This document shows positions 6,359-23,643 of a stretch of 28,866 nucleotides of DNA, one piece after another. Origin of the DNA: a virus. Made by a program: the position numbers and the translations under genes. Position 1 is the stretch's first letter. Each line of letters opens with the position of its first letter. The stretch spans positions 1-28,866 of IMG/VR virus record IMGVR_UViG_3300041809_001481; one strand, given 5' to 3'. Below the pieces are notes generated by a model. That model did no database searches and was not told where the DNA came from. It saw only the letters and a program-made list of their open reading frames with translations.

Positions 6359-6378
6359 GATATGTTTCAAAATAACTA

Positions 6379-6390
6379 TGGTATATACCA
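6379..6390. promoter_or_regulatory. 12-bp palindrome before the peptidase gene
   Basis: Perfect palindrome TGGTATATACCA, 21 bases upstream of the peptidase ATG and immediately after the terminator of the previous gene. Its position suits an operator or part of a promoter, but no protein is known to bind it. Confidence 0.3.
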
Positions 6391-6397
6391 ACAAAAA

Positions 6398-6909: not shown

Positions 6910-7296
6910 TTACTTGTGTAACTGAAACTTCTTGAGAAACGGCGCTTGCGCCTTCGTAACGGGACCAATACCCAATGCGGTAGCAGTAGGTACTCCGTTG
7001 AATCCGTTGTTTCCCGTATCGACGATGTACGCCGTGGGCAGGCCCAATTCTTGAGCCTGTTGGTGACACCTAATTAGGGCACCTAAATTTGGGCATTCAA
7101 GGCAAACCTTCGTGCCTATGCCGTCTTCACCCTGATATTCTTTTTGTATCTATGGCGGGGCTTGTAAAAATGCCCCAATGTATGCGTGGCCCGCCTGCGA
7201 ACAACTCTTTCCCACGCTCATGTTGAGGTCTGTGCGTAATATTGCATACAATCTCAACGTTTTATCTTCTATCTATTCATTTTCCATATTTGTCAT
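6910..7296 (-). CDS. Peptidyl-tRNA hydrolase 2-like gene with two in-frame amber codons
   Basis: A 128-codon frame interrupted only by TAG at 7275-7273 (codon 8) and 7152-7150 (codon 49). Decoded with TAG as sense it has the Pth2 (PTH2 family) architecture at the usual size of about 115-130 residues: YAILRTDLNMSVGK near the start and GKSCSQAGHA in the first helix (family: VVRTDLKMGKGK...QAAHA), then KVCLECPN, QELGLPTAYIVDTGNN (family: GLPTALIRDAG) and TATALGIGP (family: TVTVLAIGP). Pth2 frees tRNA from stalled peptidyl-tRNA. The ATG at 7296 overlaps the TGA of the GIY-YIG gene as ATGA. Without suppression, translation could only restart at TTG 7257 and would stop at codon 49, giving half a domain. 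A tRNA with CUA anticodon lies 690 bases upstream. A decaying pseudogene is the alternative. Too short and broken to appear as one standard-code gene. Confidence 0.75.
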
Positions 7297-8015
7297 ATTT
7301 CTTTCTTCGGTCTTCCAACCGGAAGACCCAATAATTTTCTCTTTTTTAATGTCTCTTTGATTTTTTCTATCTGCTCTATTGAAATAATTTTTCCTCGTTG
7401 GGCATCTCCTATTCTTTTTAAATGCTCCGCCGTTTTCTTTTTTCCAATAAGAGATAGACTAATCTTGATTTTGTGGTCAGCACTCATAGGTCTCCCTCTT
7501 GTGGCGATACTAAGCTTATTTCTCCACGATTCATCTAAAACCTTTCCCCTGTTTGTGTCACCTATTTTCTTCAAAGTTTTTGCGTCATGCTTTTTTCCAT
7601 AAAATGGATTATTTTTTCCACGTGTCTTTTCTGATATTTTTCTTTTGGTTTCTTCACTATGATGAAATCCAGACTGACCCTCCCCACCATCTGTCATGTT
7701 CGCCAGCAACCCTCCATTTTGTATTCTTCCATACAATTTAATTTGCGCTGCTTCGATTGCAAAAGCATCGCACTCACTTAACCCTTCTTGCAATATTTCT
7801 ACAACAGGTTCTTTACCTTCTCTGCGAATTTTCTCAATAATACGCACCTTGATTTCATTTTCATCGCCCTTTAAGTGCCATGGTTTTAGATGTTCATAGC
7901 ACCGATTCCCTTTTCCTTTTCCGGCATAAAAAGGCTTTCCCGTGGGACGCCTCAATAAATACGCATAGTAAACATTTTCTGATAAATTGGCGCAGCTAGT
8001 GGGGATCGAACCCAC
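7293..8015 (-). CDS. GIY-YIG homing endonuclease with NUMOD3 repeats
   Basis: Free-standing homing endonuclease. The GIY-YIG domain begins near 7970: YYAYLLRRPTGKPFYAGKGK (Y-Y-A-Y in place of GIY, F-Y-A-G in place of YIG) followed by GNRCYEHL, with the metal-site glutamate probably in the AIEAAQIKLYG segment. The C-terminal half holds about five NUMOD3-type DNA-binding repeats (HHSEETKRKISEKTRG, LDESWRNKLSIATRG, TAEHLKRIGDAQRG) and ends in a GRPKK AT-hook-like motif. The start is unclear: no ATG/GTG/TTG lies in frame between the tRNA and the domain. In-frame options are GTG 8015 inside the tRNA T-arm or ATG 8099 upstream of it. An out-of-frame ATG at 7975 sits exactly where a start is expected, suggesting a one-base deletion. 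The stop overlaps the Pth2-like start. Confidence 0.8.
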   Translation of the reverse strand: MGSIPTSCANLSENVYYAYLLRRPTGKPFYAGKGKGNRCYEHLKPWHLKGDENEIKVRIIEKIRREGKEPVVEILQEGLSECDAFAIEAAQIKLYGRIQNGGLLANMTDGGEGQSGFHHSEETKRKISEKTRGKNNPFYGKKHDAKTLKKIGDTNRGKVLDESWRNKLSIATRGRPMSADHKIKISLSLIGKKKTAEHLKRIGDAQRGKIISIEQIEKIKETLKKRKLLGLPVGRPKKEI

Positions 8016-8062
8016 TTGCGAAGATTTAGAGTCAACTGGCCGACCATGTGGCCCATAGCTGC
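7988..8062 (-). tRNA. tRNA with CUA anticodon (predicted amber suppressor)
   Basis: 75-base cloverleaf with encoded CCA. Acceptor stem GCAGCTA/TAGCTGC pairs perfectly (7 bp), discriminator G73; D arm GGCC/GGCC with GG in the loop; T arm GTGGG-TTCGATC-CCCAC is canonical. The anticodon loop is CTCTAAA, identical to the loop of the E. coli supF suppressor, giving anticodon CUA that reads UAG. The anticodon stem is weak: GTTGA/TCTTC has three pairs and two adjacent U-U mismatches. The G73 discriminator fits Gln, Trp or Ser charging better than Tyr, but identity is not decidable by eye. It lies just upstream of the GIY-YIG gene and the amber-containing Pth2-like gene. Confidence 0.85.
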
Positions 8063-8115
8063 ATATATGTTGCTGTGCTCGATTGCGTGCGTTTTTCATC
8101 TACATATAACCACGG

Positions 8116-9212: not shown

Positions 9213-12200
9213 CTATTTTATCTCGCATGCACCACCCGAGCAGGCAGATTCCGCCGTAAGCTGAGTCTCATCATCATCCTCTAAAAATTCTGTGAAGTCG
9301 ATGTGCTTCCACCCTTCTACTAGTTTTTTCCACTTTTCCTCATCTTCGGGGGTAGACACAGCTTCCAACGGAGCCTGCTTGTATATTTTGTCACCCATTA
9401 CCGGCAACAACGATACTGCGGCAAAAAATTGACGATTACTATAAAGAAAATCCATTACGGATTTCCATTCGTCATCTTTGACCAGTACGGTACAACTGAC
9501 ATTGTGTTCAATTGGTTTTTTGTTCGCCTCGGTGGTTCCCGGTAGCACCCAGTTCTTTTGTGTAGACAAAATCATGTCAAGATGTTTGAGCGCATCCAGA
9601 TCAGCTTTAATCAAAGATGTATCCGGCACGGTGAGAGGAAACGTGATAACATCGTCCGTCTTGGTGGCAGAATGTATACTTTCTTCTGTGGCGTGGGGGT
9701 TGATCTTTTTTGCGAATCGATAAACATTGTCCAGCCTATTGCACTGAATGCGCCTAAAATATCTGCGAGCGTGATGTGGATGGATGCCGGATGCAGTTTT
9801 TAAGACCAAAGATGAGGTTCCCTCTGGCTTTACACACGTGATTCGCGCAGCTTGATTTATCCCAATTTTTTCGGCCCACCGCTTATTTTCTTCAATGGCA
9901 TATTTGGCCATTTTTTGCTGAAGTACTGGATCAAGGAGAATTTTTGGATTATCCATGGTACCCGTTATTGACAGCCCCAACAGTGCTTCTTCCTCAGTCA
10001 ATTGTCGTGCCGCATTAGAAAGGTATGGAAAACGCGTGTATGCAGCTTGCAATGTACCGATAATGGTTGCCGCCTTTGTCGCATCACGGAATTTTTCCTC
10101 GGTGTCTATCTTTCCACCGTTCTGTGTGGTAAGATTGCAAAACTGAACGCCGCACACTCCGTCTTTGGTTACTGGAATGAAACCAATCTCGAAACACGGA
10201 TTGAAAAGCTGAGAGACGTGGTTTGCGAAAACGAATCCGGGCTCGCCAAATTGTTTTGTTTTCTCAACAATGGCATGAAATTCTTCCTCTGTCACCTTGT
10301 CGCGCAAAAGCAACACGCTATTATTGCTACGACGGCGTTGCGGTTCGATCTTCCACCAGCCGATTTTTCCTTGCTCCTTTAATTCCTTATATTCAAATTC
10401 ACTGATGTCAACGTCGTACACCCGCTTTTTGATAATGACTTGTCCATAGTAGTTTCCCGTTTCCTCATCTTTAGAAAATCTACGAATTTTGTCCACTTTA
10501 AAATATGTCTTGGCGTTCATCATGTCTTCGTCAGACAATTCGAATACAACAGATGTAGCAGACCTACGAATGCCACCACTTAACACGGCGTCTGCGCAAT
10601 GCATCAATATATCATATGCGTCGATAGTCTTCATTCTATGCTGACCACACTCTTCGATGATGTAATCCAAGAGCTTTTTGATATTCTGGTGAGCCTGCTT
10701 CAACCCCTTGTATCCCGGCGCTTTCCCACCGCCAGTTTTCAATGCCGATCCTTTCTTGCGAATCTTAGAGTAATCAAAAACGATTTTACGCCCCGTGTAT
10801 GCTGTATTTTTAAAATAACTCATGAGCAACGCCTCAACCGAGTCTGCCCATCCTTCAATGGAATCTGTGATGGCATAAACAACAACAATGCCTGTCTTGT
10901 CGTCCGCGTCTACGAGATCGGGAAGCCTCCCGAGAAAACGATTGGACAGCCCAATACCAAGCCCGCACCCGCACAATAAAAGATAAAACGACTCGGCAAA
11001 TGCCCGAATCGAGTCAATGTGTCTCGTCGCACAGTTTCCTGTAACTAGTCCGGTTGCCAACGTAAAGGATTGATCATCTTCTACCTCTAAACACCACGTA
11101 TCTTCGATGATATAGTCTCCTATAGATTCTACCCGAAACGGAACATTTGAATTTTCCAAATTGCTTGGGGAATTAGTGATTCGGAATCGAATGGTATATG
11201 GCCGAACACCAAAATTAGTTTCTTGCCCTGTTAGGTCTTCCTCTGATACGATATAGATCCCGGCAACAGGAAAGCATTCTCTGATAAATTCTATGTGCAA
11301 TAGATCGCTTGCCTGAATACAGGTGAACAAATTTTTGTTAGCTTTATCTCTTGATAAATTCTTATTTTTTGCCGCGTCCGCATCACAATATCCTCTGACA
11401 AATGCCCTGATTAAGCGGGGGGCGTCTTTTGTCGGGTCAGGGGGCGTTTTCAGATAAGCTCCCGTGAATGCTATAAAATCTCCTTTACACGAAAGCGGAC
11501 TGCTTGTAGAGAATCCCAATTCTTCAAATCTGTGTTGGTATTGTTTGTCATGGCCGCACAATCTAATCATAGAATACTGATTTCCTCCTGATTTGACCAA
11601 TGTTCCATCCCCAAAGACCAATCCGTATGCCCAATACAATTTTTCATCGGGTGGCGCAGTATCATAATCAAATGTAGAAAAAATGTCCGCTGCACCGCGA
11701 ATTATATCACCAACGGCGAGAGAAGTTGTTACTGTGCCATCTTTTAATAGCCATCTGTGATTTTTCGTTGCATATATCGTTTGATAATTGCTTGCTCTAG
11801 ACACCACAATCGGATATAATTTATCCTCACCATAACGTTTTACCACTGCCGATTTCCAATTTCCTTTATGTGTTAAAACTGTCACGTTGTCGCCATCGCA
11901 GAAGTCTTGAAATGTTTTTACCCCAACTGTTGTTATAAATTTAGTATCTTTTCGTAAACAGTTGAAAATTCTTGCTTCGTGGGCCTCAATTGCTTTGCCG
12001 CCAAACTGCAATGACCGCATTGATGGTGCTACGAGTTTTTCACGAACACGATCAAACGCCCACCGAATCTCAGCCAAATCCTCTTTGGGAAGCCAATTGA
12101 ACCTCTTCAAATGCATTTTTTCTAACCGCGCAACAGCCTCATCCCACGTTTCCCTTCGTTTTTCTTTCTCGTCATAGCGAGCATATTTACTCGCAAAGGT

Positions 12201-12266
12201 GAAATTGGAAATTTCTTCCAGAAAATCAATGGGTTTATCTTGTGTGGGTGAGATTTTTGCCGTCAT
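9213..12266 (-). CDS. nrdJ: Class II (B12-dependent) ribonucleotide reductase, intein-containing
   Basis: Adenosylcobalamin-dependent ribonucleoside-triphosphate reductase of the monomeric NrdJ type, which makes deoxynucleotides for phage DNA synthesis without oxygen or a second subunit. Key sites (numbered from ATG 12266, intein included): EARIFN then, after the 309-residue intein, CATRHIDS with the first redox cysteine (C412) and AFAESFYLLLCGCGLGIGL; NPCFEI with the radical cysteine (C691); FCNLT with the second redox cysteine (C710); C-terminal SACSGGACEIK for thioredoxin exchange. The spliced host protein is 708 residues, near the 739 of the Lactobacillus enzyme. A TTG at 12293 could add nine residues; ATG 12266 is preferred. 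Termination is at TAG, with another TAG and a TAA five to seven codons later. Confidence 0.93.
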   Translation of the reverse strand: MTAKISPTQDKPIDFLEEISNFTFASKYARYDEKEKRRETWDEAVARLEKMHLKRFNWLPKEDLAEIRWAFDRVREKLVAPSMRSLQFGGKAIEAHEARIFNCLRKDTKFITTVGVKTFQDFCDGDNVTVLTHKGNWKSAVVKRYGEDKLYPIVVSRASNYQTIYATKNHRWLLKDGTVTTSLAVGDIIRGAADIFSTFDYDTAPPDEKLYWAYGLVFGDGTLVKSGGNQYSMIRLCGHDKQYQHRFEELGFSTSSPLSCKGDFIAFTGAYLKTPPDPTKDAPRLIRAFVRGYCDADAAKNKNLSRDKANKNLFTCIQASDLLHIEFIRECFPVAGIYIVSEEDLTGQETNFGVRPYTIRFRITNSPSNLENSNVPFRVESIGDYIIEDTWCLEVEDDQSFTLATGLVTGNCATRHIDSIRAFAESFYLLLCGCGLGIGLSNRFLGRLPDLVDADDKTGIVVVYAITDSIEGWADSVEALLMSYFKNTAYTGRKIVFDYSKIRKKGSALKTGGGKAPGYKGLKQAHQNIKKLLDYIIEECGQHRMKTIDAYDILMHCADAVLSGGIRRSATSVVFELSDEDMMNAKTYFKVDKIRRFSKDEETGNYYGQVIIKKRVYDVDISEFEYKELKEQGKIGWWKIEPQRRRSNNSVLLLRDKVTEEEFHAIVEKTKQFGEPGFVFANHVSQLFNPCFEIGFIPVTKDGVCGVQFCNLTTQNGGKIDTEEKFRDATKAATIIGTLQAAYTRFPYLSNAARQLTEEEALLGLSITGTMDNPKILLDPVLQQKMAKYAIEENKRWAEKIGINQAARITCVKPEGTSSLVLKTASGIHPHHARRYFRRIQCNRLDNVYRFAKKINPHATEESIHSATKTDDVITFPLTVPDTSLIKADLDALKHLDMILSTQKNWVLPGTTEANKKPIEHNVSCTVLVKDDEWKSVMDFLYSNRQFFAAVSLLPVMGDKIYKQAPLEAVSTPEDEEKWKKLVEGWKHIDFTEFLEDDDETQLTAESACSGGACEIK
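11034..11960 (-). mobile_element. Intein with LAGLIDADG endonuclease in NrdJ
   Basis: 309-residue intein, residues 103-411 of the precursor, between IFN and CATRH. Splice block A starts CLRKDTKFITT (Cys1); block B contains TKNH (YATKNHRWLL); the endonuclease carries two dodecapeptide motifs, YGLVFGDGTLV and FVRGYCDADAA; block F is DTWCLEVEDDQSFTLATG and block G is LVTGN followed by Cys+1. The residue before the terminal Asn is Gly, not the usual His, a known but less common variant. Cys+1 is the conserved catalytic cysteine of the reductase, so the enzyme is inactive until splicing occurs. No frameshift, so both splicing and homing could be functional. Confidence 0.93.
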
Positions 12267-12369
12267 GCTTGTATTTTTATAAATTTGGTGCAAGAATTTT
12301 AGTTCATCGCAGATTCATAAGTACTAATTAAAAAAAAAGAATCATCGAAAAATATTTAAGAAAATTTTC
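12267..12369 (-). other. Non-coding leader between helicase and nrdJ
   Basis: 103 bases without a gene. On the minus strand it holds a 12-bp palindrome AGAAAATTTTCT that overlaps the helicase stop by one base (12359-12370), then a T9 tract (12338-12330) and, near the nrdJ start, TATAAAAATA. The palindrome plus T-tract could end the helicase transcript weakly; the AT-rich end could hold the nrdJ promoter. No convincing -35 seen. Confidence 0.35.
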
Positions 12370-13767
12370 TCACAAATTGGTGTTTTCACCATGTTCAAGT
12401 TCGCGAGCACGATTCCATTTTCCCTTCAACATATTCTTTACCGCGTTGCTGTCCCCTTCCATCATGGCCTGAATTTCCAACGCACGCTTCGACTTAACCT
12501 CGAACAATTCGATGTGCCCGTTGTTGGTATCCATTGTTGAGTACAATGTTATGCCGTCAGGTCCAAATCGATTCTTAATTACATGACAACGTGCTGTTCT
12601 ATTCTCCTTGTCCTGCAAATTTCGGGAAACACTAAGTACAAAATCGCCCGTCATAATCTTGCGATAGCTGTCGGAAATATTATGAGCCTGCACAATCTCT
12701 TCTAAAATTCCTGTGCGATTCGTTTGGCTTGCCGTCCAAATCGGGATCTGCAATTCCCCCGCAACTTGCCGAAGCTCCTCATAAATATTTCCCATCTCGG
12801 AGTAACTGTTGCTATTTCTTTCTTTCTCAATCGGACGCAAAATATCCGCGTAATCCACTATCATCTCATCAATCTTAATACCCTTCAAAGACTGAATCCT
12901 CTCGGTATGAAATTTAAGCGACTGTGCACTCACCGTCTTCAACGGGAAATATTTTACATACAGCTTCCCACCTATCGTTTTAAGCTTTTGTTCGACGACG
13001 GATTGCTTATGTTTGATTTGTTGAAAATCAATCCCTGTAAAACAACAATCATACCTAAGACCCACGTAATTTTCGTTTAGTTCAAGAGTAAAATGTGCAA
13101 CATTTTTTCCGGCACTCATCGCCTTCGACCCTAGCGAGCATAACAACCACGATTTCCCAATGCCCGCAGGAGCCACAACAACACCCAATTCTCCCGGCCC
13201 GAGCCCGCCGTCTGTCAAGCTGTCAATAACCTCCCATCCGGTAGATATGGGATTACGACACATTTCACCCATGCGGATAGCAATATCGGCATGATAATCA
13301 TGACCAATATTTCTCTCCATACCAGCTTTCATGGCCCCGTCAACCATGCTCTTGATTTTGTCATATTCCCCTACCTTGAGAAGATCAACTGAATCATAAA
13401 TTGCGTGCTTCAGTTTTTGATTTTTACAAAATTCAAGAAACTGGTCGCGTACAAACTGAAGGTCTGTTTCACTGATTTTTTTTCCAACCTCTCTAAGTTC
13501 TGCTTTCACCGCGTCCTTGAGTTCCCCTTCGGGAAGAGTACCAATCCTCATACCAAGTTGAAATCCTGTTGGGATGGCTTTGTATTCGTTGAATCCCAAA
13601 ATTATTTCCTTAACTAACCATTGGTGGGCCGGATTTTCAAATGCGTCAGGCTCGATTATATCAACTACACGTTCCAAAAACGACTTACTCGACATAATCC
13701 CGGCAATAACTTTAACTTCGAATTCCTTTCCGTACTTGTGAAGATTGTCTATGATTATCGGTGCCAT
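12370..13767 (-). CDS. DnaB-like replicative helicase (T4 gp41 type, 465 aa)
   Basis: Hexameric 5'-3' replicative helicase of the DnaB/gp41 family. N-terminal helical domain (about 1-165), then the RecA-like motor: linker GGLGPGELGVVVA, Walker A APAGIGKS (199-206), the catalytic glutamate in FTLEL (E229), Walker B EMIVDYADIL with D305, and the polar sensor WTASQTNR (Q348). The arginine-containing segment ending HVIKNRFGPDG (395-405) fits the family's arginine-finger region. T4 gp41 is 475 residues. It follows the small membrane protein gene and precedes nrdJ, inside the replication cluster. No T4 gp59-type loader or gp61 primase is visible in the window. Confidence 0.92.
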   Translation of the reverse strand: MAPIIIDNLHKYGKEFEVKVIAGIMSSKSFLERVVDIIEPDAFENPAHQWLVKEIILGFNEYKAIPTGFQLGMRIGTLPEGELKDAVKAELREVGKKISETDLQFVRDQFLEFCKNQKLKHAIYDSVDLLKVGEYDKIKSMVDGAMKAGMERNIGHDYHADIAIRMGEMCRNPISTGWEVIDSLTDGGLGPGELGVVVAPAGIGKSWLLCSLGSKAMSAGKNVAHFTLELNENYVGLRYDCCFTGIDFQQIKHKQSVVEQKLKTIGGKLYVKYFPLKTVSAQSLKFHTERIQSLKGIKIDEMIVDYADILRPIEKERNSNSYSEMGNIYEELRQVAGELQIPIWTASQTNRTGILEEIVQAHNISDSYRKIMTGDFVLSVSRNLQDKENRTARCHVIKNRFGPDGITLYSTMDTNNGHIELFEVKSKRALEIQAMMEGDSNAVKNMLKGKWNRARELEHGENTNL

Positions 13768-13804: not shown

Positions 13805-14041
13805 TCAACTGATAATAAAGTCGTCGAGGTTGTTTTTTTTCTCCCACACTTCATTTTTAAATTGATCAAGGAAAAATAAAGCAGCGGCGACGGTAGAATA
13901 CATAAACATAACAAATGCAATCCCCAATTTCCAATTTAGGACGAAGCACAGAATAAGCAATCCCCAACTGAATACACCATTGGGGCGTGCTGTTACAAGC
14001 AACTTAAAAAATTTCTTTTTATTTAGAGTATGATTTTTCAT
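13805..14041 (-). CDS. Small two-helix membrane protein (78 aa)
   Basis: Unrecognised. A basic N-terminus (KNHTLNKKKFFKLLV) precedes two hydrophobic helices, about residues 22-36 and 38-58, then a charged tail. The start is fixed by an ATGA overlap with the stop of the RNase H gene (ATG 14041); the frame also runs upstream to 14089, but that would overlap the nuclease by 52 bases. Its place between two replication genes suggests a possible membrane tether for replication, or simply a small lysis/exclusion protein; nothing in the sequence decides. Confidence 0.65.
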   Translation of the reverse strand: MKNHTLNKKKFFKLLVTARPNGVFSWGLLILCFVLNWKLGIAFVMFMYSTVAAALFFLDQFKNEVWEKKNNLDDFIIS

Positions 14042-15105
14042 ATTGATTTTGCCAACACAGATAACGGTTGAAAAACTTCTTGGAGCCACACATGAAAATT
14101 TGGAATAGCAGAGTGCATTCCGTTTGCGGTCAGTTTTTGAACGAACAAAAACTTATTGTATTCATACACGTGCTCTGCCGCCGCGTTTATCTGCATTTGC
14201 AATGACGGAGAAAAACTCGGGATCTTAAGTTGCATCAATTCGTAGTTTCTTTTTACAATCGCCTCCTGCTCCACAACGGTGGAAAACTTCTTGCTCTCAT
14301 TCATGCGATTCTTCGCGGACTCTATCAGTTCTGACACCGATGTTTCTTTCGCCTCTGTAAGAAACGGAAAAATCTTTAGCGCAGTTTTTAACTGTATTCC
14401 TCCGACACCATCTATGCAATCACTGTCATCGCCAGCAAGTATTCTGTAATACACAAAATTTGTTGGATGGATTCCGTACTCATTGACGATATCCTGCACA
14501 CCATAAATTTTCTTCTTTATCGGACTCCATATTTGAATCCTGTCATTTACTAGTTGCAAATAATCCTTGTCTGCGCTCATTATTGTCATGCGCGACGTGT
14601 GATACATTTGTGTAGCAATATATGCAATGGCATCGTCTGCCTCGATATAATCAATAGAAATGACGCTCACTGGCAGGTTTCTCAGGAAATCGACCAATTT
14701 CATCATTTGTTGTATCATCGCCTCGTGCTCTGTCGCCGGATCGCTCATGTCCTCATATGCGCGATTTACCCTCGTTGGCATGGCACGCTTGTTCTTGTAC
14801 CCCGGAAATATTTTTTTTCTGCGCTCGCTTCCGCCTTTCCCGTCGAACACAATGATTACTCTGGTCGGATGAAGCAGCTTAATGGAGTATCCGAGTGTAC
14901 TCAAAAATCCACTTATTCCACCAATATGTTCCCCATTATCGTTTAATGTCGGCGTGGCGATCCACGTCCTGATGAAATTGTTTGTCCCGTCTACCAGAAG
15001 AATATCATCATCGCGGCGGTTCTTGGTATTAACCCCAAGAACCGCATGTTCCGCCTTTATCTGAGAAAAGATGGAAGTGAATTTCTTCTTTGTTTCATTT
15101 TCCAT
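14038..15105 (-). CDS. rnh: RNase H / 5'-3' exonuclease (T4 Rnh, FEN family; 355 aa)
   Basis: Flap/5' nuclease that removes RNA primers from Okazaki fragments. The FEN-family metal-binding acidic residues are in order: VDG (D39) followed by TNNFIRTW; VFDGKGGSERRKKIFPGYK (D88 and the basic bridge region); IEADDAIAYIA (E155, D157, D158); SADKDYLQLV (D179, D181); and LAGDDSDCIDGVGG (D226, D229) leading into the helix-hairpin-helix (H3TH) DNA-binding segment. T4 Rnh is 305 residues; the extra ~50 are mostly C-terminal. It starts 4 bases after the recombinase stop, so translation is likely coupled. Confidence 0.9.
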   Translation of the reverse strand: MENETKKKFTSIFSQIKAEHAVLGVNTKNRRDDDILLVDGTNNFIRTWIATPTLNDNGEHIGGISGFLSTLGYSIKLLHPTRVIIVFDGKGGSERRKKIFPGYKNKRAMPTRVNRAYEDMSDPATEHEAMIQQMMKLVDFLRNLPVSVISIDYIEADDAIAYIATQMYHTSRMTIMSADKDYLQLVNDRIQIWSPIKKKIYGVQDIVNEYGIHPTNFVYYRILAGDDSDCIDGVGGIQLKTALKIFPFLTEAKETSVSELIESAKNRMNESKKFSTVVEQEAIVKRNYELMQLKIPSFSPSLQMQINAAAEHVYEYNKFLFVQKLTANGMHSAIPNFHVWLQEVFQPLSVLAKSI

Positions 15106-15109: not shown

Positions 15110-16372
15110 TCAATCGTCCATCCCCTCGCCCTCTTCGGAAATTTCGATATCGTCTGCCATTTCCGTATTCGGAGCCTTATACTTCATAATGTACTCTTCA
15201 CACACTTTGTTATACAAATACTCCTTGCAATCAGGACGATCCTGTAGAAGTTTAGGCAAGTCTTTCTTTTCAAATACAACTGTCTCGGGCTCTTTGCCTT
15301 CAACGGTCATAACGAATTGCAAGAATTTTGCTTTCTTCTTATCTTCTTCTTTCTCGTCAGCGATTTCCTTCTTCGTTTTTTTCTTTTCAGGTTTTTCGGG
15401 TTTGTCGGACTTTTCCTTCTTCGCGGGCTGCTTGACAACAATATCCCAATCCATCAGCTTTTCCAGCCAATTTCCATAGTTGTCGATGCCACGATCAAAG
15501 AAAATATTGAACTCGACAGCACGCATGGGTGGACCCATACGGTTCTTGATAATCGTACATTTGGTTTTCATACCAATGACTTCCTTGTTGGCGTTTTTAA
15601 TTTGCCCGATGGCCTTCAAACGTACACGCAGTGATGAATAAAAAGCCAGTGCCTTACCCCCACCAGTTGTCCATGGATCACCAAGACCAACAAAGCCAAC
15701 CTTCGCTCGTAGTTGGTTCGTAAAAACCAAACATATCCGCTGTGTAGCAATCAGTCCCTTGAGTTTCCTCATGGCTGCACTGATAAGAATTGCCTTGCTC
15801 GTGTTGTATCCAGCTATGCTATGGTCGTGCGCCATCTCAGTCTTGGTTGAAGCCGCAGCAATGCTATCAACAACGATTGTCAATAGACGATCCTTGTTTT
15901 CTTTTGCATTACGAACCTTGGCAATGATCTGTTCAATACCATCGAAGATATCCTCCACGGTATCCCAATTTTGTATATGAAGCATCTTAGTCAAATTGAC
16001 TCCAATTGCTTTCAAAAATTCCCGCGAAGCAGCATATTCCGTGTCAATGAAAACCGCCATTCCGCCTTTTTTCTGCGTCTCCGCCAGAATGTGTGCCGCG
16101 AGCAAGCTCTTGCCGGATGATTCGAGCCCAGTAAGCTCGGTGATACGCCCAACAGGAACTCCCGCATGTGGACGATTTGCAATGCCCACGTCAAGAAGGT
16201 CATTGCCAGTAGATACCCAGTCTATGATTTGAGAAGGATTGTCATCGTCTGCATCCAGAAAAAATGCAACCTTGTTGTCTTTATTAAGTGCTTCTGCCAG
16301 CGCGTCCGCAAGCTCGTCACGACCTGCCATGTTTGGCTTTTCCTCGCGCTCTTTCTTTTTTTCTTTGTCCAT
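15110..16372 (-). CDS. uvsX: UvsX/RecA-like recombinase (420 aa)
   Basis: Strand-exchange recombinase for recombination-dependent replication. The ATPase core has Walker A GLESSGKS (82-89), VFIDTEYAA, Walker B LLTIVVDSIAAAS, a DNA-binding L1/L2 region around TNQLRAKVGF and DPWTTGGGKALAFYSS, and NRMGPPMRAVEF. The C-terminal quarter is unusual: a lysine/glutamate-rich stretch (EKPEKKKTKKEIADEKEED), a short folded piece with DLPKLLQDRPDCKEYLYNKV, and an acidic end (DIEISEEGEGMDD). The frame is open to 16426, but the first 18 residues there overlap a terminator hairpin, so ATG 16372 is preferred. No clear Shine-Dalgarno. It forms a unit with the downstream RNase H and helicase genes. Confidence 0.92.
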   Translation of the reverse strand: MDKEKKKEREEKPNMAGRDELADALAEALNKDNKVAFFLDADDDNPSQIIDWVSTGNDLLDVGIANRPHAGVPVGRITELTGLESSGKSLLAAHILAETQKKGGMAVFIDTEYAASREFLKAIGVNLTKMLHIQNWDTVEDIFDGIEQIIAKVRNAKENKDRLLTIVVDSIAAASTKTEMAHDHSIAGYNTSKAILISAAMRKLKGLIATQRICLVFTNQLRAKVGFVGLGDPWTTGGGKALAFYSSLRVRLKAIGQIKNANKEVIGMKTKCTIIKNRMGPPMRAVEFNIFFDRGIDNYGNWLEKLMDWDIVVKQPAKKEKSDKPEKPEKKKTKKEIADEKEEDKKKAKFLQFVMTVEGKEPETVVFEKKDLPKLLQDRPDCKEYLYNKVCEEYIMKYKAPNTEMADDIEISEEGEGMDD

Positions 16373-16390
16373 AATATAGTTGGTTGTTAA

Positions 16391-16427
16391 AATGGGTGTA
16401 CCATCGTGTACCAGCGATACACCCATT
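16391..16427 (-). terminator. Terminator after the gp32-like gene
   Basis: Arms AATGGGTGTA / TACACCCATT (10 bp) with a 17-base loop that can itself pair ATCG/CGAT, 21 bases after the ssDNA-binding protein stop. The minus strand continues TTTTAAC. It separates the abundant gp32-like transcript from uvsX. Confidence 0.65.
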
Positions 16428-16448: not shown

Positions 16449-17285
16449 TTACACCTTGTTATCAAACAAGGATGCAAACTCGTCAGCAATTTCTTGCGTC
16501 GAGGCTGTTGATTTCACAGCAGCCTTTGCGGTCGCGCTCTCTAGGGCGGGTGCGGCTGCAACTGGTGCAGCGGCGTCGGGAGCAACAGGAACTTCCTCCG
16601 TGGTTGGAGTTGGCTCGGCTCCTTCTGCTGGCCCATTCAAGTATGCGTCCATCACGGCAGCAAGCTCGTCATATGTCAACTCAGGGAATAGCTCAATGAT
16701 ATTCTTCTGGTGCTTGACCTTTTCCTTCAATTCGGTATCAGTGATATCGAATGCGAGACTTGGATTCGGTTTGACGCGGATCGAGGTCTCAGGAAAATCC
16801 TTTCCGGTCTCTTCTGCTGTCTTGAATTCCACCGTAATGTCACGGCCAGTCTTCAAGTCAGTGATGTCGCCGTAATCGGGATCAGCAATAAGTGCAAGTA
16901 TTTCCTGATAAACTTGCTTGCCCATTCCCCAAAACTTAACGCCCTCGGAGTTGAGGCCGCGTACAAGAACGGGAACATATGTGCGAAGCTTCGGCTCCAA
17001 CGAGCGACCTTGCTTCCAATCTTCCTTGTCCCCGCTTTTCTTGAGTTTGTTGGCAAACTCAACGATAGGATCGGGGCGATTGAACGACGCAGGACTCAAA
17101 TAAGTCTTGTTGTTCAAATTGTAATGGAAAAGCAATTCAATAAACGGATTGTCTGGTTGATGCGAGTACGGGACAATGCGAACGACTTGTTTTCCCGGTT
17201 GTGGTTTCCACAGTGCGGTGGACTTTGTTGATGAATTCTTGAGTGCCTCAAGACGATTCTTAATTTTTGCGAGATCGAGCGACAT
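16449..17285 (-). CDS. gp32-like single-stranded DNA-binding protein (278 aa)
   Basis: Single-strand binding protein of T4 gp32 type. The N-terminal basic region has SLDLAKIKNRLEALKN and a LAST-like KSTALWKP; the core has KQVVRIVPY and RTYVPVLVRGLNSEGVKFWGMG; the end is an Ala/Pro-rich linker (VAPDAAAPVAAAPALES) and an acidic, aromatic-tipped tail EIADEFASLFDNKV for partner docking. There is not one cysteine, so the Zn site of T4 gp32 is absent. The ribosome binding site AAAGGA is excellent (seven bases before the ATG), and the gene is closed by a terminator, both fitting high expression. T4 gp32 is 301 residues. Confidence 0.88.
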   Translation of the reverse strand: MSLDLAKIKNRLEALKNSSTKSTALWKPQPGKQVVRIVPYSHQPDNPFIELLFHYNLNNKTYLSPASFNRPDPIVEFANKLKKSGDKEDWKQGRSLEPKLRTYVPVLVRGLNSEGVKFWGMGKQVYQEILALIADPDYGDITDLKTGRDITVEFKTAEETGKDFPETSIRVKPNPSLAFDITDTELKEKVKHQKNIIELFPELTYDELAAVMDAYLNGPAEGAEPTPTTEEVPVAPDAAAPVAAAPALESATAKAAVKSTASTQEIADEFASLFDNKV

Positions 17286-17315: not shown

Positions 17316-18053
17316 TTACTTACTATTGATTAACTGAGTATCAGCTAATGATTGAATAGATTGGTCTAGAAATGGTTTATTGTCAAGTTGTAATAACACG
17401 TTTCTGCGCGCCCAACCTTGTTTTATTGATGCTCCTAAATTAAGTTTATGTTGCGCTGAGAATGGCGCTCTCTTTTTTCCGGTTAATGCCGCCGATATTT
17501 TTGCTCTCCACTCAGCAGAAATGTTTTTATGTGATTCGGCTATCTTGCTCCGGTGTGCCTCCGACATTGGGCCTAATTTTCTCCCCTTTTTTGCCGCAGA
17601 TATGTTAGCACCAATCTCAGACGACCGCGCTTCGCGAGCAACTCTTATCTTGTGCCGCATTTCGTCCGTCCAAGGATGGCCCGGTTTTCCTGCTTTTGCG
17701 GCAGACATTTTCATCTTTGTTTCATCAGAAAATTTTCCGTGACTGCCACCCTCACGAATATTATATCCAGTTTTTATGGAGTCATACTCGCGCATCCAAT
17801 ACATTTCTCGATAATCCAATATCCAATCAATTGGATTACACTCTTCTAAGATTATTTTATCAAAATCATCATACCCATATTTAAGCAATGCACGATAAAT
17901 TTTTCGCTGACCCTTACAATTTTTATATTTATAGGCTTTTTCCCACCTATCAAAAATATTAAGACTTTGGCCGACATACCACTTCCCTGTCGTTTTACAT
18001 TTCAAGCCATATATTCCGCACACTATTTTAACTGATAAATCATCACTGGTCAT
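17316..18053 (-). CDS. GIY-YIG homing endonuclease (Seg-like, 245 aa)
   Basis: Free-standing homing endonuclease. GIY motif at residues 13-15 (CGIYGLKCKTTGKWYVGQS, with WYVGQ as the YIG part), the family arginine in NIFDRWEKA, and the metal-binding glutamate probably in DYREMYWM. The C-terminal half has at least four NUMOD3-like helical DNA-binding repeats (FSDETKMKMSAAKAG, MSEAHRSKIAESHK, ISAEWRAKISAALTG, FSAQHKLNLGASIKQG). It sits just upstream of the gp32-like gene, the usual kind of conserved target for such elements. It follows a terminator and a variant CTATTTATT motif, so it may have its own promoter. The catalytic motifs look intact. Confidence 0.88.
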   Translation of the reverse strand: MTSDDLSVKIVCGIYGLKCKTTGKWYVGQSLNIFDRWEKAYKYKNCKGQRKIYRALLKYGYDDFDKIILEECNPIDWILDYREMYWMREYDSIKTGYNIREGGSHGKFSDETKMKMSAAKAGKPGHPWTDEMRHKIRVAREARSSEIGANISAAKKGRKLGPMSEAHRSKIAESHKNISAEWRAKISAALTGKKRAPFSAQHKLNLGASIKQGWARRNVLLQLDNKPFLDQSIQSLADTQLINSK

Positions 18054-18107: not shown

Positions 18108-18126
18108 AACGATTAGAAAAATCGTT
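18108..18126 (-). terminator. Intrinsic terminator overlapping a stop codon
   Basis: 7-bp stem AACGATT / AATCGTT with a 5-base loop; on the minus strand it starts within the TAA of the 132-residue gene and is followed by TTTTTC once the loop closes. Good intrinsic terminator in a compact arrangement. Confidence 0.65.
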
Positions 18127-18523
18127 ATTTTATTCTGAAAATTCTCAGCAATTTTGTCGGGGTTATTTTGACTTTTCCCTCGCGAGTCGTGATGAAACAG
18201 TTCCTATAGTGGTCCCAATCAATCTGATATGTTCGCACCAAAACGCCACCATTGTTTTCTTTGATCAACTCGTTCAATGCGTTGATGGAATAGATTGTAT
18301 TGAATTCTTTCTTACGGTGAACCGAAACTGTGTGAGGATAGAATTGTCCGTTCGATTTTTCCGCGTTGTACGTAAGAAAAATGTCCGTTGGGTCGGCACC
18401 GCTTTGCAAAACATAAACCTTCTTGTCAACGAGATTGTAATAGCTGCAAACAGATTCTATTTCGGTCAAGTACGTTTCGTGCTTAGAAAACGTGCACAGC
18501 AATTGTGTAACCATGGGTTGCAT
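18125..18523 (-). CDS. Hypothetical protein (132 aa)
   Basis: Unrecognised, probably a compact alpha/beta protein: strands around KKVYVLQSG, DIFLTYNAE and HTVSVHRKK, then a helix NALNELIKEN and a strand GGVLVRTYQI. The end is strongly basic (KVKITPTKLLRIFRIK), which would suit nucleic-acid contact. It begins one base after the stop of the 297-residue gene and ends inside a terminator, so these two genes form a unit. The location beside gp32-like and polymerase genes hints at a replication or expression role, but I see no named motif. Confidence 0.65.
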   Translation of the reverse strand: MQPMVTQLLCTFSKHETYLTEIESVCSYYNLVDKKVYVLQSGADPTDIFLTYNAEKSNGQFYPHTVSVHRKKEFNTIYSINALNELIKENNGGVLVRTYQIDWDHYRNCFITTREGKVKITPTKLLRIFRIK

Positions 18524-18524: not shown

Positions 18525-19418
18525 TCACGTTCGGTTTTTTTCGGCGTAAATCTTCAACTCATCACGATGCACGTTATTGATCGGAACAACTTCACCAGAA
18601 AGTCCTAACACTGCCATTGAGTTTCCCCTATCGTCTCTCCACTCCCCATACGGTGTAGGTTTCCACCCTTTTTGAGTAGCAAATTGTGTTGAGATTGCAA
18701 CGTACTGTGGGGTGATCGGCTGCGGTTCTGGCGCGGGCTCGGGCGCAGTTGTGGGCGGAGTAGCTGGCGCTTCTGGTGCAGGAGCCTTTCCTGCCGGGGA
18801 TGTTCCACCCGACGGCCCGGATGGTGGTAATGCGCTCGATGAATTTGTTGGCGGCGATTCTGTTGGCTCGCCAGTGCCGTCTGTGGCATCCGGTGTTGTC
18901 TTTCCCGGTGCGGGGTTGCTGTTGCCAGAATCATTTTTCGCGGGTGTTTCCGGTTGCTGTGAATCCCCTTGCGCATCTGCTGCCGGAACCTGTCCTGCCA
19001 CGGGTTGCTGTGGAGCATTTGTTGGAACTTCTTCTGGCTCGGTAACGCTCGGGTCTTGCTGCGTCTGCCTGCGCTGCTTACCTTTCCTCTTGTAATACAA
19101 ATTCATCCCCCCTTTACCGTGTGTCGGATCGGTAACGAAATGCGTATGTTTCTTGAGGGCGGCATCGCGATATTCTTTTGATGGGAAAGTAACAAGCCAT
19201 CCTTCCTTATTGTAAGCCTGACGTTCTGGATATTTACCCTCATCGACGAATCGTTGAACAAACTCATTTATGGTCTGCTCATTGATTCCCGAATCGTACA
19301 TCACCTCTGCAATAACTTGAACGTGCTCGACGTTCTTTAAATCTACTATGCCATCCGGTATTCTGGAATCTAGCGCTGCTTCCGAGATAATGCCCAAAAT
19401 AAATTGTTCCGTGTCCAT
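18525..19418 (-). CDS. Hypothetical protein with long Pro/Ala/Thr linker (297 aa)
   Basis: Three parts. Residues 1-120 look folded: helices FILGIISEAAL and NEQTINEFVQRFVDEGKYP, then RQAYNKEGWLVTFPSKEYRD and a basic patch KRKGKQRRQ. Residues about 125-235 are a low-complexity linker rich in Pro, Ala, Thr, Ser and Gly (for example APAPEAPATPPTTAPEPAPE), probably disordered. Residues 236-297 form a second small domain (YVAISTQFATQKGWKPTPYG, then AVLGLSGEVVPINNVHRDELK). I know similar 'YNKEGWLVTFPSKEYRDAA' segments from phage proteins of unknown function. It starts seven bases after a CTATTTATA motif, at the head of a unit, so it may be a late or structural protein. Confidence 0.65.
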   Translation of the reverse strand: MDTEQFILGIISEAALDSRIPDGIVDLKNVEHVQVIAEVMYDSGINEQTINEFVQRFVDEGKYPERQAYNKEGWLVTFPSKEYRDAALKKHTHFVTDPTHGKGGMNLYYKRKGKQRRQTQQDPSVTEPEEVPTNAPQQPVAGQVPAADAQGDSQQPETPAKNDSGNSNPAPGKTTPDATDGTGEPTESPPTNSSSALPPSGPSGGTSPAGKAPAPEAPATPPTTAPEPAPEPQPITPQYVAISTQFATQKGWKPTPYGEWRDDRGNSMAVLGLSGEVVPINNVHRDELKIYAEKNRT

Positions 19419-19472: not shown

Positions 19473-20897
19473 TTACGACAGAGACACAACCTTCATGTCT
19501 TTGTACGATTTTCCGACATATACCTTCACCGGGAGATTGTCACGCTCCATGATCTTCTTGATCTTTTTTATAGTATCTATTCCGTCTTCCTTGTGGGCAT
19601 CAAAGAGAATACTGTCATACGTATACAAGACGGGCATGGTTTTTTTACCATCCAATTGGATCAACAGGTCACTCAGCACGTCCACTGCCATCTCTGTCTC
19701 GTATGCCTGCAATATATAATTAAACAGCTTGCTTGGGTTGGCCTCTTGAATGTGGCAAGGCCGTATTTTTCTTTTATATTTCGGCGTTTCCACATACCCG
19801 TTCTCGGTATAGAACTTCCACCGATGATCAATATATTCTTGAGCTTTGGCCAGATAAGGCACGTGCAGCCATTTCTTGTCTATCCCACCATATATCTGCG
19901 GGAAGGTATATGCCTTAGAAACCGCAATATCCTCTTCATCGACCTCTTTCTTGTCAAAAAAATACTTGGCAAGGTACGCATAAGGATTCTCACTTGCAGG
20001 CATATGGAAGTTTGCCAAATGAGCAATCAAACGAGGATGGAAAGCGTTATAATCCATCAATACCAGCATACCATCGCTTCCATACCGCGTCACAAAACAA
20101 CTTCTGCTTTGATCCTCTTTTTTTAATGCTGCATAATTGACGCCCGCAAACCGATTGCTTGGTCTCCCTGTGCTGGTAAGAAAATTGTACTGGGAAAACA
20201 CGAGATTGCCCTTGATATGCTTTGCTTGGTTGTCGCCAAAATGATCTACAAAGTCATTGTTTACACACAATCCATTTGACTCCAATTTGGCAAAGCAGCA
20301 CGTCATGGTGTCATTTACAAACCGAAACCCCGGATCATCGATGCCGTCCAACTTAATTTTCTTAAAATACTCAACCTTTTCCAAAAATACGCGGGCGTGT
20401 TTGTACAATGGCACGCACCCGTTCGTATCGGGAACATTTCTGAAGTTTTGATTAACAAAATTATGGGCGTTGGTGGTGTATTCGGCGGCATCAATTTCTC
20501 CGTCGTTCAAAAACTTTAAAACGGTGATGTCCACAAGCCCGTGGTCGCCCCTAAATAATTGAACCACATTCTTTTTGTTCCACACAAATTTTCTGCGCTT
20601 GGTTGCCTGAAGTGCGTTATTGAGTTTCTCGGTTCCTCCGACAATTGCCACAGCCTCCTGATGATTAATCGGCAAACAGGCACACGCTTCAGACGCCACA
20701 AAATAGAAAAACAGCAAACTAACGGTATTATTCATGCAATGTTTCTCGGCATCCACACAAACAACATCTATCAATACATCGTCCGTCATTATATTGGACA
20801 CCAGCATGTCTAAATCAACTTGACTTTCTACAATTTGCACGCGAACAGGCTGCACCTTGCTGGCCAATTTGTCAACAAATATTAGTTGCCTCGCCAA
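19473..20897 (-). CDS. DNA polymerase family A-like protein (474 aa)
   Basis: Palm/fingers of a Pol I-type polymerase. From the TTG at 20897: thumb-palm signature TSTGRPSNRFAGVNYAAL (241-258; Pol I has ATGRLSS...LQNIP), motif A MDYNAFHPRLIAHLAN with D282, motif B KAYTFPQIYGGI (K328, Y336), then GYVETPKYKRKI and NYILQAYETEMAVDVL as in Pol I, and motif C YTYDSILFD with D428. Both metal-binding aspartates are present, but the Pol I motif-B arginine is Ile and motif C has YDS instead of HDE. The first ~190 residues do not show a clear exonuclease triad. No ATG is available near the start; a TTG overlaps the upstream gene by 16 bases. A family B polymerase begins elsewhere in the window, so this one may be a repair or accessory enzyme. 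Confidence 0.8.
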   Translation of the reverse strand: MARQLIFVDKLASKVQPVRVQIVESQVDLDMLVSNIMTDDVLIDVVCVDAEKHCMNNTVSLLFFYFVASEACACLPINHQEAVAIVGGTEKLNNALQATKRRKFVWNKKNVVQLFRGDHGLVDITVLKFLNDGEIDAAEYTTNAHNFVNQNFRNVPDTNGCVPLYKHARVFLEKVEYFKKIKLDGIDDPGFRFVNDTMTCCFAKLESNGLCVNNDFVDHFGDNQAKHIKGNLVFSQYNFLTSTGRPSNRFAGVNYAALKKEDQSRSCFVTRYGSDGMLVLMDYNAFHPRLIAHLANFHMPASENPYAYLAKYFFDKKEVDEEDIAVSKAYTFPQIYGGIDKKWLHVPYLAKAQEYIDHRWKFYTENGYVETPKYKRKIRPCHIQEANPSKLFNYILQAYETEMAVDVLSDLLIQLDGKKTMPVLYTYDSILFDAHKEDGIDTIKKIKKIMERDNLPVKVYVGKSYKDMKVVSLS

Positions 20898-21271
20898 TAC
20901 TCCAAGAGATTCGGCAATGCCAATGACAAATCTACCCCATTTTCTACTTTGACCCGATTTATTTCAGAGGTATTCAGTTCTACGACTCCAAAATTGGTGA
21001 TTATTTTCCCCGAATATGTGTTGTTCTTTGGGCCTGAAATTGCCCAACTAAGGGAAACTGTGGCATATAGCGAAGTACTAATATTTTGAACTTGCTGATT
21101 CTGAATCTCTATTACTGCGTTCGAGTTGAGTTTTTTTGCAAATACGCGGGTAATAGATCCATTTGAGTAATCCTGCGACGTGGGAGTTGGCTTATATGGT
21201 ATTGGTGCCGTTCCGATATCGAGCCCGGAAACGTCTCCATATTCAGATACTATGTTTTCATTATAAATCAT
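20882..21271 (-). CDS. Hypothetical structural protein (129 aa)
   Basis: Unrecognised. The start is fixed by ATGA overlap with the stop of the 791-residue gene (ATG 21271). After a Pro/Thr-rich lead (APIPYKPTPTSQ) the chain looks all-beta: alternating strands such as AVIEIQNQQVQNISTSLYAT and SGKIITNFGVVELN, ending in a short helix (SLALPNLLEYWRG). No cysteine, no membrane helix. Its coupling to the large baseplate gene suggests a small virion or baseplate component. It overlaps the TTG start of the polymerase gene by 16 bases. Confidence 0.65.
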   Translation of the reverse strand: MIYNENIVSEYGDVSGLDIGTAPIPYKPTPTSQDYSNGSITRVFAKKLNSNAVIEIQNQQVQNISTSLYATVSLSWAISGPKNNTYSGKIITNFGVVELNTSEINRVKVENGVDLSLALPNLLEYWRGN

Positions 21272-23643
21272 TGTAATGAAGTTAGCGGACGAGCTTGGGC
21301 AACAACCGTTGTAGTCCACATTTTGTTTTCAATTTTTTGCTTCACGTCTGATACCTGCCACACAGCTTGGTCGTATGCATATGAACTAGGCACATGGTCA
21401 AGTGTAAATTGGGACAAGAACGTTATTCCGGCAATTCCCAAGAATTCCAATTCAATATTGGTTCCCGGCATAATCGCGTGGTTGGTATAAATTGCTTTTG
21501 CGTTCTTCAAATTAATCAATATGCTTTTGAGGAAATATGGCTCCGATTCACACAAAATATACACGGTCGGTACCTTCCCCACGGTTTTGGTATATGTAAA
21601 AAAGTTACACTCCGTGTCTTTTGTAAAAAGCCGAGTAAACTCAGATTTGTCACTGTCAGGGGATTCATTCGACGTTTCCACATTTTTTAATATTCCCATT
21701 TCAAACATTCGATCTCCCTTAGAAAATCTACTTCTTAGCATCGTCTTTGGATCTACGGTTGCGGCACCACTGTTTGCTGGAAGTTTATCAGTGCTTTGCC
21801 CACTGGCACTCTGCATGACCATTTGGTTGGACATTTCCCCACTAAGCTTCACATCAAAACTGACCGAACGCACATACGCCGAATTAACAGATCCCAATGA
21901 TATGCGATGCAGTTTTCTGGCGTGTTGGGATGTCGTGATGGCAGAAAAATTTGTATCGACTACAGAATAACTTTGATTTCCATTTACGTCGGGTACAAGC
22001 TTTAATTGGGATATATTGCACATGGCCTCGGAAATGTGTGCTAACAACTCTTCCACAAATTTCAGCACTGTTTCATTTTTTTCCGTCAAGTCCTTAAGAA
22101 ACGACACCGACACAAAAATATCCTCCAACATTCCCCAATACCCAGCATCAGCAGAACCGGGAGTATCGTTTGGCGGAATGTATGCAGAATACTGAGGAAA
22201 CGAGTTTCCCGATGGATTTATAATAGATTGCAAATCGTCATATGATTCATCGAAGCCGTGGTCTTTCATGAAATTTATGACATCTGGAAATAACGCTGTG
22301 TATGGTCCCGTGGGAGATTGTGGAGAAGATGTCGCACTTCCCTGCACTTGCAATGTTTCCAATCGATTTGGACCTATTTCCGAATGTTGCGATCCAGATT
22401 CAATTGATACGAATCGCGGAGCATATTTATTGGGAATAAGGATATCCTTTGACGTGGATTTCAGTCCGGGGTGTCCACAAACCACAATATTCTTTACATC
22501 CAAATACATTGCATTTGTTCCTGTGTCCGCATATTGAGGATCGACAAAGCTTAATGTGAAAAATTTGTTTAATATGTCCGAAACCAAATCCATTCTCAGC
22601 CAAGTTTCTGTCGTGCTATTTGCAGAATCATTTCCACTTGAATTTTGATTATTTATTGTGAACACCCTTCCAGCCGTGTTCAGTGTAGCTGGCACGGATG
22701 GTGGTGTTTGGGAAATTGTGCTTGAGGCTGGTGTAGATTGGGGACTTACGTTGCCTGTACTAACTAAGTTATGCACATCATCCGTTATGAACTCCACAAA
22801 ATCCTTCAATTGAATTGCTCCACCTGTTTTGTTCGGATCTTTTCCTTCCGTGCTGCCACCCACATATGACCTCCCAGCAACCAAATAGTTAGCGTTCGTT
22901 ATTGTTGTGGTGCAATCATATCCTCCAACTTCATTCATGCTGAAGTTATAATCGGTTATGAACCCCATTGCCAGATCATAATTCCCGTTGGATCGTTGCA
23001 CTCTAGCCGTAGTTTCCGCCTGCGTCCCACGGAAGATCTCAAACAGCGTGCCCACATTTTGTAAATCAACCAATGAACTTGGATCGTAATTGTTCCATCC
23101 CCACTCGACCAATACCGACATCCTCGGCACAAAAAAGTATTGAGCCAAATACTCCAATTGAGAAAGAGAATAGCACGTCCAAGAAATTTTTGTCTTCCGA
23201 CACAATGCAGTGAAATTGCTGTTCTGCCCGCCGGAAAATTCAGACTCAACAGAAATAACACTTGGTGGTGGGCGATGCGGAAAGTCGGACAGATGCGAGC
23301 GTGTACCGTCTCCCAATGCACGCTCCGAAGATACTAACGTGTGCGGCTGACCAATTGCATCAACTCCAATAGTTACTGTCCCGTCAACGTTGAAACCATA
23401 ACTATCATCGAATCCAACCGTGCCGCCCATTACAAATCCCTGCAAATTGGGAGCGAACGTAGAAATTCCGTTGGAAAATACCCGCACCCACGCAGTCTTA
23501 GGACCACTATATATTCCATTTCCCTGACCCACACTGGTCGGGTTCATATCATACTCCTGCGCTCGATTTTTCAATTCCGCGTTGATCCAGTCGTCGAGTG
23601 GATGTAATCCCCAAGGAAATATGTTGTTTGCTGGCGGTGCCAT
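21268..23643 (-). CDS. Large baseplate/tail-hub-like structural protein (791 aa)
   Basis: Large virion protein. The N-terminus (NNIFPWGLHPLDDWINAELKN) and early strands (GPKTAWVRVFSNGIS) are typical of phage structural chains. Around residues 155-200, ISWTCYSLSQLEYLAQYFF and PRMSVLVEWGWNN suggest the barrel region seen in tail-hub proteins; the middle is Ser/Thr/Asn-rich, and residues 560-790 contain a regular alpha/beta region with TVYILCESEPYFLKSILINL and FLGIAGITFLSQFTLDHVPS, ending in QVSDVKQKIENKMWTTTVVA. The order tape measure, gpU-like, LysM-like, then this gene parallels the T-U-X-D order of contractile tails (P2 gpD hub position). Function as hub is inferred from synteny; no peptidoglycan hydrolase motif seen. 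Confidence 0.7.
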   Translation of the reverse strand: MAPPANNIFPWGLHPLDDWINAELKNRAQEYDMNPTSVGQGNGIYSGPKTAWVRVFSNGISTFAPNLQGFVMGGTVGFDDSYGFNVDGTVTIGVDAIGQPHTLVSSERALGDGTRSHLSDFPHRPPPSVISVESEFSGGQNSNFTALCRKTKISWTCYSLSQLEYLAQYFFVPRMSVLVEWGWNNYDPSSLVDLQNVGTLFEIFRGTQAETTARVQRSNGNYDLAMGFITDYNFSMNEVGGYDCTTTITNANYLVAGRSYVGGSTEGKDPNKTGGAIQLKDFVEFITDDVHNLVSTGNVSPQSTPASSTISQTPPSVPATLNTAGRVFTINNQNSSGNDSANSTTETWLRMDLVSDILNKFFTLSFVDPQYADTGTNAMYLDVKNIVVCGHPGLKSTSKDILIPNKYAPRFVSIESGSQHSEIGPNRLETLQVQGSATSSPQSPTGPYTALFPDVINFMKDHGFDESYDDLQSIINPSGNSFPQYSAYIPPNDTPGSADAGYWGMLEDIFVSVSFLKDLTEKNETVLKFVEELLAHISEAMCNISQLKLVPDVNGNQSYSVVDTNFSAITTSQHARKLHRISLGSVNSAYVRSVSFDVKLSGEMSNQMVMQSASGQSTDKLPANSGAATVDPKTMLRSRFSKGDRMFEMGILKNVETSNESPDSDKSEFTRLFTKDTECNFFTYTKTVGKVPTVYILCESEPYFLKSILINLKNAKAIYTNHAIMPGTNIELEFLGIAGITFLSQFTLDHVPSSYAYDQAVWQVSDVKQKIENKMWTTTVVAQARPLTSLQ

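Follow-up and report, generated by a model that had tools for sequence, protein, structure and literature searches.

The window analyzed in this study is the whole 28,866-nucleotide stretch of the IMG/VR virus record IMGVR_UViG_3300041809_001481 (positions 1 to 28,866). A compact family A DNA polymerase, assigned below to the divPolA1 type, is encoded on its minus strand at 19473–20897; the protein has 474 aa when counted from a TTG codon, and its conserved part begins at about 20840 (455 aa). Downstream on the same strand follow genes for a 297-aa protein (18525–19418), a 132-aa protein of unknown fold with the motif HRKK..N..Y.INALN, which is a candidate partner subunit of the polymerase (18125–18523), a gp32-like single-stranded DNA-binding protein (SSB; 16449–17285; PF08804, E 1.5e-11), a RecA/UvsX-type recombinase (15110–16426; PF00154, E 1.3e-54), a Pol I-type 5'-3' exonuclease (FEN; 14038–15105; PF02739, E 2.1e-30), and a DnaB/gp41-type replicative helicase (12370–13767). 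A further minus-strand gene (3–284) is cut by the window edge, which leaves 94 aa from the N-terminus of a family B DNA polymerase (PolB) of the T4 type.

The gene order divPolA1, 132-aa protein, SSB, RecA, FEN, and DnaB recurs across divergent relatives. At testable loci, SSB was found downstream of divPolA1 in 113 of 120, RecA in 94 of 101, and FEN in 80 of 86; since some lineages do not carry them downstream, these three proteins need not act directly with divPolA1. The gene lying between the polymerase and its 132-aa companion (18525–19418 in the window, and likewise in loci L130, L150, L153, and L162) is hypervariable, ranging from about 290 to more than 1,800 codons, and gave no Pfam match above the cut-off. 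Many non-Immutovirus relatives have a gene of another length here, and many copies share a similar start of about 50 residues (..I..EWAYR...G.PD..N..H...L...L...), and in Immutovirus-type loci the gene is absent or replaced by homing-endonuclease-like ORFs.

Several other features of the window were also recorded. Two ORFs of the GIY-YIG/NUMOD3 homing-endonuclease type are present on the minus strand (17316–18053 and 7293–8099), and the former lies between the 132-aa companion and SSB genes, unlike in the other related loci mapped. The start of the latter is overlapped by a well-formed minus-strand tRNA (7988–8062) with the anticodon CTA (amber) and an encoded CCA, which is possibly an amber suppressor. 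A TAG stop codon is found in only 1 of the 25 main ORFs (9213–12293, a class II ribonucleotide reductase), and a CTA tRNA was not found in nine of ten related loci, whether at the corresponding site or in the rest of the sequence searched. A papain-family cysteine protease gene, unusual for a phage, is located beside RIIA/RIIB-like genes (5582–6394, minus strand; Pfam Peptidase_C1, E 1.2e-17).

The ORF at 19473–20897 matched the PHROG_17 DNA polymerase profile (E 1.2e-13) and, under the curated cut-off, Pfam DNA_pol_A (E 3.8e-6), and a profile of 16 relatives aligned with Klenow across the template-arginine motif and motifs A, B, and C, namely the palm and fingers. The AlphaFold model of the 474-aa protein (pLDDT 87.9, pTM 0.86) was superposed on the Bst Pol I large fragment with a Z of 26.6 and an rmsd of 3.4 over 417 residues (model residues 1–450), and showed a palm with the catalytic aspartates. 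Because this superposition extends over the whole length, the protein has kept the fold of the exonuclease-like domain; in the model, about 100 residues separate this domain from the TGR motif. The top places of the structural ranking were occupied by Pol I large fragments, and Pol nu and Pol theta were among the matches. The family A reading in the preliminary description was thus borne out by both the profile search and the superposition on Pol I.

The TTG start of the ORF is doubtful. Since residues are clearly conserved from about residue 20 onward, translation may in fact begin at a GTG (20838–20840), which gives 455 aa; a scan for ribosome-binding sites yielded no more matches than expected approximately by chance. 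The ORF itself is not a chance one, because 66 relatives were found in a first scan and at least 569 confirmed candidates in a broader alignment-based scan. In contig L066 (IMGVR_UViG_3300045125_000089; 96.7 kb), nearly all genes are broken by frame changes; stop-codon recoding was considered for this contig and rejected, as the broken ORFs change frame with all three stop codons, which points to an error-rich assembly.

A tblastn search with the polymerase matched six of 50,697 phage records, four of them Immutovirus, in which the gene is annotated as DNA polymerase family A. The match to the divPolA1 prototype of Immutovirus had an E of 2e-38 with 27% identity over 88% of the query. Yutin et al. 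2024 named divPolA1, with Flavobacterium phage vB_FspM_immuto as the prototype. In the available passages it is described from 14 phages, each of which has a regular PolA, PolB, or PolC as well; this additional, divergent PolA has a conserved palm, an inactive exonuclease domain, and a truncated thumb, and replication genes are conserved downstream of it (PMC11348598). It was inferred there to have kept its polymerase activity and to take part in replication, and the function was left open (PMC11348598). Because the divPolA1 features that were open to testing were found in the window gene, it is almost certainly a member of this described family. The preliminary description regarded two polymerases in one phage as unusual; both are indeed present, but an extra polymerase of this kind is not new, as the available passages show it published in 2024 as divPolA1 (PMC11348598). 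What the current study adds is the family-wide replacement of E710 by His and the dedicated 132-aa companion, neither of which was found stated in those passages.

The active site was surveyed in 171 full-length sequences, which formed 75 clusters at 80% identity with a mean pairwise identity of 36%. In the window protein, motif A reads D282-Y-N-A-F-H287-P-R289 (20031–20054, minus strand), where D282 corresponds to Pol I D705 and H287 to the steric gate E710; motif B reads I324...K328...F332...Y336-G337 (19887–19928, minus strand), with Ile324 at the R754 position; and motif C reads Y427-D428-S429 (19611–19619, minus strand) in place of H881-D882-E883, so that the three motifs, both catalytic aspartates (D282 and D428), the replaced motif-B arginine, and the YDS sequence are all as first described. 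Across the family, the D705 and D882 positions are each Asp in 75/75 clusters, K758 is kept in 74/75, and F762 and Y766 are kept in 75/75. The E710 position is His in 75/75, R754 is lost in 72/75, the H881 position is Tyr in 75/75, and the E883 position is Ser in 55 and Ala in 20. Since the catalytic aspartates are invariant at a mean identity of only 36%, selection is predicted to maintain an active enzyme. As a control, regular PolAs of the Immutovirus type keep E710, R754, and H881 in 80/80 relatives, although this control is narrow, the 80 being close relatives of one another.

In the N-terminal, exonuclease-like domain, the only invariant residues of the divPolA1 alignment are H, H, K, K, and D. 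When aligned by eye, the lone D matches the FDT aspartate of Pol I, which is not a catalytic residue, and no acidic exonuclease motif I was found among the conserved columns. E710, R754, and H881 as well as the proofreading residues of replicative family A polymerases of the Pol I/T7 type are not kept in divPolA1.

The YDS motif noted initially is present, but the PolA of phage Tt72, which polymerizes DNA actively, has Ser at the same E883 position, and 76% of the activity remains in its S616A mutant (PMC9324360); YDS alone is therefore weak evidence of odd chemistry. The stronger feature, which had been overlooked, is the change of E710 to His, and it is the strongest anomaly of this polymerase. 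E710 and Y766 are said to be universally conserved in family A and form the fidelity-determining pair of Pol I, E710A being a mutator (PMC4882331), and E710 has been given the role of a ribonucleotide gate (PMC9324360).

These residues bear on two other explanations of the enzyme. One is that divPolA1 is an RNA polymerase, as suggested for the unrelated divPolA2, because it lacks E710 and has Ser as the last residue of motif C. T7 RNA polymerase also has Ser there (HDS). However, the RxxxK motif common to T7 RNA polymerase is lost in divPolA1 and F762 is kept in 75/75 clusters, its closest fold matches come from DNA polymerases, the active Tt72 DNA polymerase likewise has Ser in place of E883, and the bulky His could still act as a sugar gate; an RNA polymerase is accordingly very improbable. 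The other explanation is an enzyme for translesion synthesis or damage tolerance, or one suited to templates with modified bases. It is consistent with the loss of the exonuclease, the change of one residue of the E710/Y766 fidelity pair, the presence of Pol nu and Pol theta among the fold matches, and the DpdA/queuosine-type (7-deazaguanine) genes carried by a distant Immutovirus relative. Nevertheless, Pol I large fragments rather than Pol nu or Pol theta head the structural ranking, its constant placement among replication genes speaks for routine use more than for induction by damage, and neither DpdA or queuosine-type genes nor any other DNA-modification genes were recognized in the window. 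We consider this explanation unlikely. Repair, one of the roles first proposed, or gap filling is the likeliest class, while the handling of modified bases is unsupported by the window.

Concerning the regular polymerase, the product of the gene at 3–284 is 54–74% identical to the starts of PolBs of about 840 aa in eight relatives and matches the annotated PolB of Microcystis phage Mel-JY01 with an E of 1e-9, which confirms the initial reading of a family B N-terminus at the window edge. The PolBs of the eight relatives are intact and keep the exonuclease motif I DIEV, NSLYG, and YIDTDS; the motif DINSLYPS was read in the printed PolB sequence of one relative. Because divPolA1 was the sole family A polymerase found in the PolB-bearing relatives searched, PolB and divPolA1 occur side by side. 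A gp61/DnaG-type primase, for which T4 gp61 served as the positive control, was found in 12 of the 14 relatives of at least 129 kb that were searched (G001, Mel-JY01, Immutovirus, LR756508, G015, G016, G020, G021, and G026–G029), and the two negative ones (132 and 134 kb) may be incomplete. The idea that divPolA1 replaces a missing primase was ruled out by this finding. A regular polymerase was present in 11 of the 12 primase-positive relatives, PolB in seven and a regular PolA in four, and none was found in G020.

The 484-kb phage genome LR756508.1 (L078) has PolB matches in two ORFs about 4.3 kb apart (record positions 260623–266900), which would be an insertion or a split gene. It also has a match of the DNA polymerase III alpha type at 47415–48068 (E 2.5e-42). 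This genome possibly carries three polymerase families in addition to divPolA1.

A further possibility is that PolB and divPolA1 divide the bulk of replication between them, with divPolA1 copying, for instance, the lagging strand. Its position as the first gene of a cassette with helicase, SSB, and FEN, and its retention whichever regular polymerase the phage has, which is also evident in the available passages of PMC11348598, would agree with such a division of labor. On the other hand, an enzyme with no proofreading and an apparently small thumb region would be unsuited to kilobase synthesis, and T4-type forks need just one intact polymerase. Bulk replication is therefore a rather unlikely task for divPolA1, which is probably not the phage replicase.

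The 132-aa protein is encoded downstream of divPolA1 in 168 of the 169 loci with enough downstream sequence to be testable, and the two proteins match exactly the same six of the 50,697 phage records. When the search was started from the 132-aa protein, divPolA1 was found within the flank in 46 of 67 testable loci; of the remaining 21, five contigs were checked, four of which carry divPolA1 elsewhere, and in the fifth the companion lies near the contig end. The 132-aa gene stays with divPolA1 where SSB, RecA, and FEN were not found downstream (e.g., L130, L150, and L162), and in these three loci the variable gene stands between the two. In a mirror-tree comparison of evolutionary distances that covered 31 non-redundant loci, divPolA1 had partial correlations of 0.61 with the 132-aa protein, 0.39 with FEN, 0.38 with gp25 (baseplate), and about 0 with the adjacent upstream gene, compared with 0.79 for the known pair SSB–RecA. 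As all phages are related and the comparison has no significance test, it is supporting evidence only, and the FEN signal is not specific, since the baseplate protein gp25 gives a similar value. The 145-aa upstream gene (20882–21319) was considered as a partner and rejected; it adjoins baseplate genes and has no partial correlation with the polymerase. Taken together, these data indicate that divPolA1 and the 132-aa protein are likely to be a functional pair.

The model of the 132-aa protein (pLDDT 92.1) has a mixed alpha/beta topology. Its only good structural match is an uncharacterized phage homologue; the best Z to other folds was 6.3, no OB-fold match was listed, and the weak partial matches to ferredoxin-like domains and the SV40 T-antigen origin-binding domain are under the noise level stated for the tool. 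An SSB with an OB fold like that of MP was considered for the companion but drew no support from these matches, and T4 RegA, suggested by the topology, was rejected at an hhalign probability of 1.9%.

The presence of such a companion raises the possibility of a two-subunit primase-polymerase, in which divPolA1 and the 132-aa protein would start DNA or RNA strands unprimed, perhaps at origins, beside the gp61 primase. The precedent is CcPol, an A-family polymerase of SCCmec that acquires primase activity by binding the small product of an adjacent gene (PMC7581432, PMC10061031), and the near-invariant small neighbor of divPolA1, its lost proofreading, and its lost E710 sugar gate resemble what such an enzyme might have. 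However, the gp61/DnaG-type primases of the large relatives leave none counted as missing, the companion model gave no match to the OB fold predicted for MP, and CcPol keeps E710; we regard a primase-polymerase as improbable. The same low probability is given to the broader idea that the two proteins form a new type of two-subunit polymerase with His instead of the Glu sugar gate, which would make de novo starts or use unusual nucleotides beside the gp61 primase and PolB.

Our preferred reading is that of an accessory polymerase. The enzyme is a compact polymerase of family A in which the palm retains its two aspartates, the 3'-5' exonuclease domain is vestigial, and the nucleotide pocket is remodeled, and it would form a complex of its own with the 132-aa protein; its class and the partnership are well supported. 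Such a complex may perform short, proofreading-free synthesis on SSB-coated DNA, filling the gaps behind primer removal by FEN and/or extending recombination intermediates made by RecA, while the regular polymerase, PolB in this phage, would copy the genome. divPolA1 probably replaces neither PolB nor the primase. Gap filling or the extension of recombination intermediates fits a Pol I core that lacks proofreading and is encoded next to SSB, RecA, a Pol I-type 5' nuclease, and the replicative helicase, and, as divPolA1 accompanies different replicases, it should therefore serve a step common to them. This accessory gap-filling or recombination-linked role is put forward tentatively, at slightly less than even confidence. 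The E710 and R754 changes might instead mark an enzyme that uses unusual substrates, and in T4 gap filling is done by the phage PolB itself, which counts against the need for a second enzyme.

As divPolA1 is kept while the main polymerase differs (families A and B), it does something that the regular polymerases do not. Earlier it was known from 14 phages (PMC11348598), and here it was found in at least 569 environmental phage contigs. The His at the E710 position and the near-obligatory companion make the role of this second polymerase testable through nucleotide choice and through the binding and activity of the pair, and a cultured host system exists in Flavobacterium phage immuto.

Among known polymerases, Klenow/Bst Pol I has the same general fold as divPolA1, exonuclease-like domain included, and the equivalents of D705, R668, K758, F762, Y766, Q849, and D882 are kept. 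The two differ in that divPolA1 has His for E710, no R754, Tyr for H881, Ser or Ala for E883, and none of the exonuclease acidic residues, at about 16% identity. The PolA of phage Tt72 likewise has Ser where motif C of Pol I has E883, but differs in its active proofreading domain and its E710 equivalent (E389) (PMC9324360). An RM378-type split polymerase was considered from the RM378 annotation alone and set aside.

TV-Pol (Iyer et al. 2008) is likewise a compact superfamily A viral polymerase with a conserved template arginine and two aspartates. In contrast to TV-Pol, divPolA1 does not keep the fingers RxxxK (its R being lost in 72/75 clusters), retains the exonuclease-like domain, and stands in a cassette with a DnaB-type helicase and FEN, whereas TV-Pol is linked to a D5 helicase, resolvase, or transposase, with no nuclease. 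CcPol-MP, of the PolA-SSB primases of SCCmec, shares with the divPolA1 pair an A-family polymerase, a small dedicated neighbor gene, and a location beside a helicase; it differs in the predicted OB fold of MP, to which the divPolA1 companion gave no match, and in the retained E710 of CcPol (PMC7581432), and divPolA1 phages have their own gp61-type primase. With the divPolA1 prototype, as far as the available passages describe it, the window gene shares homology, the status of an extra to the regular polymerase, the kept palm residues, the lost exonuclease residues, and the replication genes downstream. There is no difference in kind between the two; the window gene is only about 27% identical to the prototype, belongs to another lineage, accompanies a PolB, and is separated from its 132-aa partner by an extra gene.
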